From positions 1-44,230 of the forward strand of contig JAFVIF010000003.1 in assembly GCA_017474125.1 (NCBI GenBank): a stretch of 44,230 nucleotides of DNA, written 5' to 3'. This document shows positions 36,173-39,569 of this stretch, one piece after another (within the stretch, counting starts at the first letter, position 1; each line of letters starts with the position of its first letter). The stretch comes from Clostridia bacterium. Its GTDB lineage: Bacteria; Bacillota; Clostridia; Oscillospirales; Acutalibacteraceae. The position numbers and the translations under genes are program-made. The notes under the pieces were generated by a model that was given only the letters and a program-made list of their open reading frames with translations, ran no database searches and was not told where the DNA came from.

Positions 36173-39151
36173 ATGAGATTCTATGAGAAATATGAAAAAA
36201 CCAGTGAAAACCGTTTGCCTCAGCGCGCGTTTTATATTCCCGAGGGTGAAGCTGTTTATACCCTTTTAAACGGTGAATGGCGTTTTAATTATTATGCCAA
36301 CAGCGATGAGGTTGACACTAACGGAAAAATTGCCAAATGGGATAAAGTAAAGGTTCCCTCTACCTGGCAGAATACGGGTTATGAAAACCCTAATTACTGT
36401 AATATTAACTATCCTTTTCCTATAGATCCTCCTTACGTGCTTAACGTAAATCCCGTAGGTATTTACGAAAAGGATTTTAACATTACCGATAACAATAAAG
36501 AAACCTACTTTGTTATGGAGGGTGTAGCTACCTGTGCAAGTGTTTTTGTAAACGGCAATTACGTTGGATTTACTCAGGGAAGCCACCTTCAAGCAGAATT
36601 TGATATTACCCCGTTTGTAAATGCGGGCAAAAATACCGTAAGGGTTGCCGTATATAAATGGTGTGTAGGCAGCTATCTTGAGGATCAGGACTTTTTCCGC
36701 TGTAACGGTATTTTCCGTGACGTTTACGTTTTGGAGCGCCCCGTTGGTCATATTGTTGACTTTGCCGTTGAAACCGAAAATAACGATACCGTTATTGTTA
36801 AAACCGCTCCCGAAACCGACGTTACCCTTTATGATAAGGGCGAGGTTATCGGTGCTACAGTTACCGATGAAAACGGTGTAGCCGCCATTAAGGTTGAGAA
36901 CCCCGTTTTATGGAATGCCGAAAAGCCTTACCTTTATGAAATTGAGCTTAAAAAGGCAGGGGAGGTTATTTTCGAAAACGTAGGCTTCAGAACCTATTCA
37001 ATTAACGAAAATAACGAATTTTTGGTAAACGGCGTGTCTGTTAAGCTTAAGGGTGTTAACCACCACGATTCCCACCCCGAAAACGGTTGGGTAATGAGTG
37101 ATGAGGATATCATTAACGACCTTAAAATAATGAAGGAGCTGAACATTAACTGTATCAGAACCTCCCACTATCCTCCTACTCCCCGTTTCTTGGACTATTG
37201 TGACAGAATGGGCTTCTACGTTGTTCTTGAAACCGATATTGAAACTCACGGCTTTGTTCGCCGTTACGCTAACGTTCCTTACTGCTATGACGTTGAAAGC
37301 GGTGAATGGCCCTGCTCTATGCCTGAATGGAAGGACGAACACGTTGAGCGTATGGCAAGAGCTTATCACAGAGATAAAAACCATCCTTCCATATTTATGT
37401 GGTCTACGGGTAACGAAAGCGGCCACGGCCCCAACCATATTGCGATGCTCGAATGGTTAGCTACCGTTGAAACCAAGCGTCTTTATCACGCAGAGGATGC
37501 TGCCCGTGCATTCCACCGTTGGGACGCAGGCTTTAAAAAGGCTAAGGAAGAATTGCTTCTTGCCGAAAAGAGAAACGAAAACGTAGAGCAAGCTAAAGCT
37601 AAATACGAGCAGGCTGTAGCTGACAGGGAAAAGGCAGAGGTTGATATGAGAAGAGCCCATTTCCATTCGGGAATGTATATTTCTCTTTCTACCCTTGACA
37701 AATGGGTTGACGAAAACGTTGTAAATCAGCCTATATTCCTTTGCGAGTATGCCCACGCTATGGGTAACGGCCCAGGAGACGTGTTTGATTACGTTGAAAA
37801 GTTCTACAGTCATCCTGCTCTTGTGGGCGGCTGTATTTGGGAATGGTGCGACCATACCGTTATAGTTGACGGCGTTCAGAAATACGGCGGTGACTTTGAG
37901 GGTGAGCTTACCCACGACGGCAACTTCTGCTGTGACGGTCTTGTGTTCTCCGACAGAAGCTTAAAGGCAGGCTCTCTTGAAGCAAAAGCCGCTTACGCTC
38001 CCTTCCGTTTTAAGTATGAAAACGGTAAAATTAAGGTAGATAACCGCTTTGACTTTACCAATCTTAATGAATATAAGCTTACCTATGTGCTTTCCTGCGA
38101 CGGCGAGGTGCTTGAACAAAATACCGTGGTTCTCGATATTGCTCCTCACGAGAGCGGTATTATTGAAACAAAGGCCTCCTTCCCCGAAAGCTGCAAATAC
38201 GCTTGTACCGTAAACGTTACTCTTGCCGACGCAAACGGCAATGAGCTTGGTACTCTTCAGCAGGAAATTGAAGCAGAAAAGGAATGCATTTTAGCTGAAA
38301 TCAACGGCAGCGCAAAAATATATGAAGAAGGTTTGTATATTTATGCCGAGGGCAAAAACTTTAAGTATACCTTTAATAAGCAAACCGGCAATATTGACAG
38401 TATGATTATTGACGGCAAGGAACAGCTTTACGCTCCTACCGAAATATCTACTTATCGCGCTTGTACCGATAATGAAAAGAATATGAAGGCTAAATGGTTA
38501 AAGCTGGACGTTTGGTCCGGCGAAAACCTTAACTATTGCTGGTACAACGTTTACGACAGTATTATTGACGGCAATAAGATTACCTTTAAGGCTTCTCTTG
38601 CTCCTATTTCCCGTGCTCCCATATTCCGTTATAGCGTAGCCTATACCATAGGCGAGGACGGTACCGTTAAGGTTGAGCTTGACGGTAAGATAAGAGAAGG
38701 CTGTATTTGGCTGCAGCGTCTCGGCTTCGTTTTTGCCTTCAAGAATAAGAATATGGAATTTGATTACTTTGGTATGGGCCCCGAGGAAAGCTATGCAGAC
38801 CTTCATAACTGCAGCGCTCTTGATTGGTACGTAAGCAGAGCAAAGGATGAATACGTAAACTACATTCTCCCTCAGGAACACGGTAACCATATTGGAGTTA
38901 GAGAGCTTACTCTTGAAGACAGAATTACCTTTAAGGCTGAAAGCACCTTCGAGGCAAACGTTTCTCAGTATAGCATTGAGCAGCTTATACAGGCCAAGCA
39001 CACCGACGAAATTGGTGAAAGTAAAGCAACCTATGTGAGAATTGACTATAAGAATTCCGGTATAGGAAGTAACTCCTGCGGCCCCGCTTTGGAGGAAAAA
39101 TATCGCTTTGACGATAAGGACATTCATTTTGTTTATACCATTAGTATTTAA
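36173..39151 (+). CDS. lacZ: Beta-galactosidase, glycoside hydrolase family 2 (LacZ type)
   Basis: A 992-residue cytoplasmic enzyme. Domain order is GH2 sugar-binding jelly roll ([19 protein letters not shown]), immunoglobulin-like domain, TIM barrel with [12 protein letters not shown], acid/base E415 (STGNESGHG) and nucleophile E525 ([12 protein letters not shown]), then a beta-galactosidase small-chain domain at the C-terminus ([20 protein letters not shown]). Between E415 and E525 there is a charged helical insertion, residues about 445-500, rich in K, E and A ([20 protein letters not shown], then [18 protein letters not shown]) which spaces the two glutamates 110 apart instead of 76 as in E. 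coli. Single-gene unit with its own promoter. The stop codon TAA is supplied by the terminal repeat of the element at 39148. Confidence 0.9.
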
Positions 39152-39569
39152 CAAAAACTCTCCGTTCATAGGGTGGTATCCTTAGCGGAAAATTTACACT
39201 TTGACAAAAGTGCGAGCATCGCATTTGACCGGTCAAACGCAAATGGGCTAAGCCCAAACCCTTAACACAAGCAGAAAGAGAGAACAAATCGGCTTAAATC
39301 CCGAAATGTCCTCTCTTTTTTCTGTTAGTGATGTTTTTGCTGACGCAAAAGTGATGTTATGCTCCGCATAATGATGTTGCTCGCCATTTGCTACGCAAAT
39401 ACAAGCTCGCAATGATGTGATGTTTGCCCACTGTGCCGAAGGCACAACATCATTCACGCAGTGAACATCACTGCCGCAGGCAACATCATTTGCCCGTGAG
39501 GGCAAACATCGTTTAGCGTGAATGCTCCGTTAAGAGCATCACGCTATTTGGACGGAGAGTTTTTGTTAA
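39148..39569. mobile_element. 422-bp hairpin array with 18-bp perfect terminal inverted repeats
   Basis: TTAACAAAAACTCTCCGT (39148-39165) and its exact reverse complement (39552-39569) bound the element. Inside are palindromes TTTGACCGGTCAAA (39224-39237) and TGGGCT-a-AGCCCA (39244-39256), a CAGAAAGAGAG/CTCTC-TTTTTTCTG stem, then eight small hairpins such as TTTTGC-tgac-GCAAAA, TATGC-tcc-GCATA, ATTTGC-tac-GCAAAT, TGTGCC-gaa-GGCACA, TTCAC-gca-GTGAA, TGCC-gca-GGCA and TTTGCCC-gtga-GGGCAAA. Those in the first half are joined by GTGATGTT, those in the second half by AACATCA, its complement. No transposase or credible gene inside. Classed as a MITE-like element; no clear target duplication. Part of a 536-bp gap with no gene. 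Confidence 0.65.

Follow-up and report, generated by a model that had tools for sequence, protein, structure and literature searches.

Serine recombinases act on dyad sites, where their two cuts lie 2 bp apart in the middle. Transposons carrying a large serine recombinase with Resolvase, Recombinase, Zn ribbon and DUF4368 domains, which we take to include Tn4451 (TnpX) and Tn5397 (TndX), presumably resemble the system described here. Gut-1 RNA (RF01706) is, to our knowledge, an orphan Rfam family without an explanation, and no paper was found under the name 'Gut-1 RNA'. Prokaryotic miniature inverted-repeat elements (MITEs) are characterized, in the available part of the source (PMC10969869), as short and non-coding, with terminal inverted repeats, flanking direct repeats, many copies and a folded transcript. 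For IS30, the available part of another source (PMC9333248) describes nearly palindromic hot spots with insertion at their middle 2 bp. In the partly available literature on transposons, IS, MITEs and hairpin repeats, no description of MITEs in terminator loops was found; serine recombinases in terminators lay outside the scope of this search.

We analysed a stretch of 44,230 nt (the window) from a Clostridia bacterium of the Acutalibacteraceae, whose genome assembly (G000) comprises 2.0 Mb in 79 contigs and is about 86% complete. The locus is very probably best explained by a non-autonomous, MITE-like element of 376 bp, carrying a mirrored hairpin array, that inserted into the loop of the lacZ terminator; a recombinase would have acted on it in trans. 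Its likeness to MITEs lies in its shortness, lack of coding sequence, terminal inverted repeats, flanking repeats and many copies, as listed in the part of PMC10969869 available; it differs in its terminator-loop target, its mirrored array with interchangeable linker classes and its recombinase-type partner. With the large serine recombinase transposons it shares a 2-bp core at the centre of a dyad and the protein type of its partner; the differences are the host terminator loop as target, the varied cores and the absence of genes from the window element. The features of the locus are as follows.

36173..39151, + strand: lacZ (beta-galactosidase), an ORF with Pfam domains Glyco_hydro_2_C and Bgal_small_N and its native stop codon at 39149-39151.
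39153..39167, + strand: host lacZ terminator, A-run (39153-39157) and left arm CTCTCCGTTC (39158-39167), pairing with 39550-39559.
39168..39169, no strand: left copy of the shared dinucleotide AT; relatives have a 2-bp repeat at these offsets.
39170..39545, + strand: non-coding mobile element of 376 bp, bounded by the 2-bp repeat and alignments of relatives.
39171..39189, + strand: left terminal inverted repeat, pairing with 39526-39544 in the class alignment and resembling the ends of the recombinase element.
39208..39326, + strand: conserved left domain, including a hairpin (39270-39323) with compensatory changes; its pattern occurs in at least 116 genome stretches.
39327..39431, + strand: left half-array, TGATGTT linkers at 39329, 39352, 39372 and 39418 with hairpins between them; weak Gut-1 match.
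39432..39514, + strand: right half-array, AACATCA linkers at 39446, 39464 and 39482 with hairpins between them; Gut-1 match.
39516..39544, + strand: right-end hairpin GCGTG..CACGC, the 3' portion of which (39526-39544) forms the right terminal repeat; the right-end pattern recurs in genomes of the order.
39546..39547, no strand: right copy of the shared dinucleotide AT (2-bp repeat).
39550..39564, + strand: host lacZ terminator, right arm GGACGGAGAG and T-run, assigned by complementarity, comparison with the congener G001 and the fold of the rejoined site.

No ORF of at least 100 aa was found inside the 376-bp element, and no sigma-70-like promoter in 39000-39700.

A preliminary description had taken 39148-39569 as a 422-bp unit with exact 18-bp terminal inverted repeats. 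The exact arms (39148-39165 and 39552-39569) were confirmed within 21-nt arms that are 95% complementary; judged from the sequence, however, they are best read as the two arms of the intrinsic lacZ terminator, split by an insertion, and the element as 39170-39545. The 18-bp repeat as the element's own end was ruled out by the locus-specific arms, the uninterrupted G001 terminator and the offsets of the 2-bp repeat. A 17-nt pattern of the repeat was found elsewhere in G000 only with 3 mismatches. The terminal repeat thus literally occurs once, which the preliminary description had named, together with a lack of array-like copies in related genomes, as speaking against its unit, but this is no refutation: the repeat has no close genome copies because it is host DNA.

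To compare relatives, we reduced 117 loci to 76 full-length elements. Of the 41 loci left out, L082, L160, L167 and L096 had room for a right end but no recognizable one, and the others were ended by a locus or contig boundary or had no usable end; the left ends of L096, L102, L125, L135 and L139 were set by a fixed offset. The flanking arms varied by locus yet remained complementary, with a mean score of 24.5 versus 15.9 for swapped loci (n = 72 loci), and the score exceeded the maximum of 212 controls in 21 of the 72. Typically an A-run precedes the left arm and a T-run follows the right one, the longest runs being equal (5.1 each). When the flanks were rejoined, an unbroken stem of at least 7 bp appeared in 54/76 loci, versus 13% of swapped flanks, and the mean 60-nt MFE was −18.5 versus −8.9, with 4 nt as the commonest loop; the 7-bp stem was absent from 22/76 loci, one of which (L154) comes without right-flank sequence. 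The rejoined window site forms a 20-bp stem, A and T runs counted, with a 4-nt loop. The target is a long DNA palindrome.

A 2-bp direct repeat, the flanking repeat expected of a MITE, was present at fixed offsets in 64/76 relatives (24.1 expected) and missing in 12; the core dinucleotides were AA, AT, TA and a few others. The terminal inverted repeats are 19 bp long and imperfect: the first and last 19 alignment columns pair with mismatches, and those of another class alignment are similar. Alignment A2 took in 13 of 20 members. Among the 59 loci with genes called on both sides, the neighbours were convergent in 34, (+,+) in 15, (−,−) in 9 and divergent in 1; strands were assigned by an ORF heuristic that left one side uncalled in 17/76 loci and probably miscalled L065 and L115.

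Uninterrupted sites were found in related genomes. The lacZ genes of both congeners, G001 and G002, end in an uninterrupted terminator, with a closely similar stem in G001 and another intact stem in G002. The G001 end reads AAAAACTCTCGG...CGGGAGTTTTT, unbroken; its left arm is 1 base off that of the window, and 3 of the 7 right-arm positions adjoining the T-run are different. G001 lacZ is followed by an rplM-like gene, whereas the rplM-like gene of the window lies at 42719, so the comparison is restricted to lacZ and its terminator. A simple terminator scan did not flag the G001 terminator, probably because its T-run pairs with its A-run. The lacZ stop codon (39149-39151) lies within the left 18-bp arm, which had been proposed as its source; since G001 lacZ has its stop in the equivalent position, ahead of the uninterrupted terminator, the stop codon is lacZ's own and the element did not supply it. 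Elsewhere, L104 has an intact terminator where L116 carries an element. Four of nine orthologues examined for the G241 locus (L280, L281, L282 and L289) have an uninterrupted hairpin, L283, L284 and L290 have no hairpin there, and L286 and L288 hold other DNA. Six orthologues of the G268 locus were judged by eye: four have an uninterrupted hairpin (one with little T-run), one is unclear, and for one the stretch inspected did not take in the junction. At this site G268 itself carries some 900 additional bases and is therefore not a clean pair.

The sequence of the window element matched 14/60 genomes, its own included. The left-domain pattern occurred in at least 116 stretches in named genomes; the matches listed were Clostridia, Clostridiales, Oscillospiraceae or Ruminococcus MAGs, many from deer, sheep or goat gut. 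The right-end pattern occurred in 25/295 genomes of the order, again including its own, and the two counts are not independent, as some genomes are common to both. Viral contigs had no match to the left-domain pattern, and blastn gave no match among phages and plasmids. G000 holds a second element with a right-end hairpin (G000:C71, about 59730-60100, L208) of class TGATATT, whose flanks by eye have no matching terminator arms. Small inserts, apparently other small repeats, are nested in the elements of L061, L062, L069, L074, L107 and L116 (e.g. CCCCAAAGCTC...GGGGAACCCC). The stretches L026, L040 and L103 bear arrays along with another left domain (..CTACCGTAAAGCAG..); L026 also has a GACCTGC..GCAGGTC cap. 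Beside the window element, at 39572-39605, lies a short palindromic repeat, GTAGGGGACGATGCCCACATCGTCCCGC, with more copies in G000 and G001 and one in G002.

We then examined the array. Exact linkers were located at 39328, 39351 and 39417 (GTGATGTT), at 39370 (AATGATGTT) and at 39446, 39464 and 39482 (AACATCA), which bears out the described order of a first-half type followed by AACATCA. Spaced linker pairs numbered 4 versus 0.00 expected. A greedy finder returned 11 local hairpins of at least 5 pairs, some with one mismatch, in 39160-39569; 5 of them lie between linkers and have loops of 3-4 nt, and 2 span a linker. For these two, the shorter hairpins reported earlier are an alternative. Folding, which had been suggested as a check, gave −174.2 kcal/mol for 39148-39569 as RNA (z −14.0 versus shuffles) and z −12.3 as DNA, far stronger than shuffled sequences in both cases. 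The earlier description of an ordered unit with complementary linkers and hairpins that branch off was right. The suggested linker search found linker-hairpin arrays recurring in G000 on C13, C42 and C50, and array-like copies with modular variation are present in related genomes.

Eight linker classes occur on one scaffold: TGAAGTT (20), TGATATT (12), TGATGTT (11), TGAAATC (9), GTTATGA (9), TCGATAT (6), TGAATTG (6) and GCGATAT (3). All forward linkers precede all complementary (reverse) linkers in 74/74 elements with both orientations, and the 7-8 nt of the linkers changed alike across the copies of one array and their complements. Among 375 array hairpin pairs we counted 48 compensatory, 31 G-U and 44 A-C changes, compared with 13 G-U and 1 A-C in tRNA acceptor stems (n = 41). 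G-U versus A-C changes were 26 versus 29 in arrays and 25 versus 78 in the left domain, the latter count probably stemming from one inherited pair; for unique hairpins they were 17 versus 19 in these elements and 13 versus 7 in Gut-1-type arrays (pooled versus tRNA, P 0.006). Element MFE was similar on both strands (−138.8 and −140.5; 48 loci). We read this as array pairing kept on both strands. A strand-symmetric array would close on itself whichever strand is transcribed, so that the terminator arms could still meet and the cost of insertion would be low. Over 48 loci, terminator-arm pairing with the real versus a shuffled insert was 0.90 versus 0.86 (+) and 0.87 versus 0.85 (−), values that are hardly separated, and the insert ends came close together on the + strand only.

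The array might instead be the active part, serving in protein binding, as a decoy or as a boundary at gene ends, with mobility secondary. Arrays of the same design stand directly behind terminators without obvious sign of these ends, and linkers within one array are nearly identical, as this reading would have it; linkers nevertheless differ by class and several classes coexist in one genome, which argues against a single recognized motif. We regard this reading as possible but rather unlikely.

A probable enzyme was found. The left-end pattern gave 51 matches in 13 genomes, of which 30 loci were read. At L222, a DUF4368 protein ends 72 nt inside the left end and reads towards that end. Homologues of this recombinase (E 1e-15) were found in 26/295 genomes; at this threshold none was found in G000, a genome about 86% complete. 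Of 10 homologous loci examined, 7 have a like end directly after the gene, followed in several by a stem arm bearing a T-run; L345, L323 and L346 have no such end, and coordinates there may be off. One complete partner element was seen, in G131 (G131:C4; L350, 4791-9756); it is 4,966 bp long, is flanked by arms AACAAAACACAGTCTGC and GCAGACTGTGTTTTG and has the core AA at both junctions. On average, 16.6 of 22 positions at its left end and 15.9 of 22 at its right end agree with the ends of the small elements (random stretches 5.5, maximum 13). Besides genes for a YitT-type membrane protein and a pyruvate kinase, it carries one for a large serine recombinase with Recombinase, Zn_ribbon_recom and DUF4368 domains; a Resolvase domain was not reported in the frame scanned (8272-9678), and the homologue L321 has it. 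The DNA fold of one partner-element end was not special. L350 thus shows both what links MITEs to a larger enzyme-encoding element, ends in common, and what a serine recombinase would leave, a 2-bp core at both junctions; it is the probable full-size partner of the small elements. The large serine recombinase of such a like-ended element would move the small element in trans, as its position suggests, and the att sites would be dyads around the 2-bp core, one being the terminator palindrome, with the core as its middle 2 bp, and the other the joined element ends.

The sequences themselves show where the element begins and ends, its terminal repeats and shared 2 bp, the terminator as its target, the empty sites, the eight linker classes on one scaffold, and larger like-ended elements, likewise in split terminators, that carry a large serine recombinase. 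The earlier statement that the unit is 'not a simple MITE' is to be revised: terminal repeats, shared 2 bp, empty sites and a larger like-ended partner are MITE-like behaviour, although the interior is unusually elaborate.

An IS30-like DDE transposase that duplicates 2 bp at the palindrome centre would be another mover. IS30 does target the middle 2 bp of nearly palindromic hot spots, according to the part of PMC9333248 available. IS30 genes, however, occurred in only 3/15 genomes, six IS30 loci lacked the left-end motif at <6/22 mismatches, so that the element's ends are absent from the IS30 genes found, and what like ends do enclose is a serine recombinase gene. We demoted IS30 as mover and hold it to be very unlikely. 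Because a recombinase-bearing, like-ended element sits in a split terminator, a crossover core of a serine recombinase is the best reading of the 2 bp, in preference to an IS30-type duplication.

Rfam reported nothing in the window at gathering thresholds. At relaxed thresholds, Gut-1 matched the right half-array (39442-39514, − strand; 37.4 bits, E 7.4e-6, below the gathering cut-off of 50) and, weakly, the left half-array (39326-39382, + strand; 24.2 bits). Five of ten other sources scanned matched, with halves of L109, L129 and L151 at 53-55 bits, above the gathering cut-off of 50; L063, L150, L022, L029 and L033 had no match at E 0.01. G000 has 21 Gut-1 matches at E 0.001 or better. Gut-1 has three hairpins with UGAAAU linkers between them and is thus built like one half-array; it differs in that its strong matches lie behind, not inside, terminators and that the window halves are below the cut-off. 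In six of seven strong matches examined, the match makes up the left half of a mirrored array that extends further and has 3-4 reverse linkers; L265 has one. Arrays of the Gut-1 type begin right behind a hairpin and T-run in 15/19 cases with full flanks and 21/30 overall, versus 39/1500 random positions, and may form a second group. Their terminators are identical in five genomes (L250, L252, L255, L256 and L275), where array and terminator may therefore move together.

Several further arrays were noted. The window contains a second one at 43611-43790 (linkers AGTTATATT / AATATCACT), following the terminator of a gene that ends at 43563. L022 (G000:C13) has arrays of different linker class at 1497-1700, behind the tmRNA terminator, and at about 2095-2280, behind that of the next gene. 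Terminators beside arrays in L022, L033, L047, L261 and L273 have a common apical TTTGTC..GACAAA-like stem motif. The Gut-1-type arrays of L249, L253, L254 and L256 are followed by a conserved tail that terminates with AATATCTTTTT, or with ATATATTTTT in the case of L254, which may be a duplicate of the T-run.

A reading of the unit as a gene for a structured non-coding RNA related to Gut-1, with the outer stem as its own terminator and kept for its RNA function, accords with the strong fold, the compensatory changes and the Rfam typing of Gut-1 as an sRNA gene, but is the least probable one and very unlikely, given the locus-specific outer stem, the 2-bp repeat, the empty orthologous sites, the lack of a G-U excess in these elements and of a sigma-70-like promoter in 39000-39700, the (+,+) 15 versus (−,−) 9 neighbours; ends of the same kind on a recombinase-bearing element lower its probability further.

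Returning to the insertion reading, we tentatively propose, as an idea somewhat short of an even chance, that gut Clostridia harbour a serine-recombinase system landing in terminator palindromes, whose passengers are strand-symmetric mirrored arrays with linker classes changing in concert, that the terminator remains usable from either side, and that the Gut-1 'RNA' is a half-array and not an RNA gene. The parts are of known kinds; their combination is new to us. A named enzyme candidate makes the idea testable at once, and Gut-1, above its cut-off in 68/197 genomes of the order, makes the arrays easy to study. The concerted linker classes raise the question of how the arrays originate. A recombinase that recognizes the palindromes of terminators instead of a single defined sequence would be unusual as well as useful. 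The array and Gut-1 would be joined in one testable idea, that of mobile elements settling in or right behind terminators, a landing site that would spare genes.
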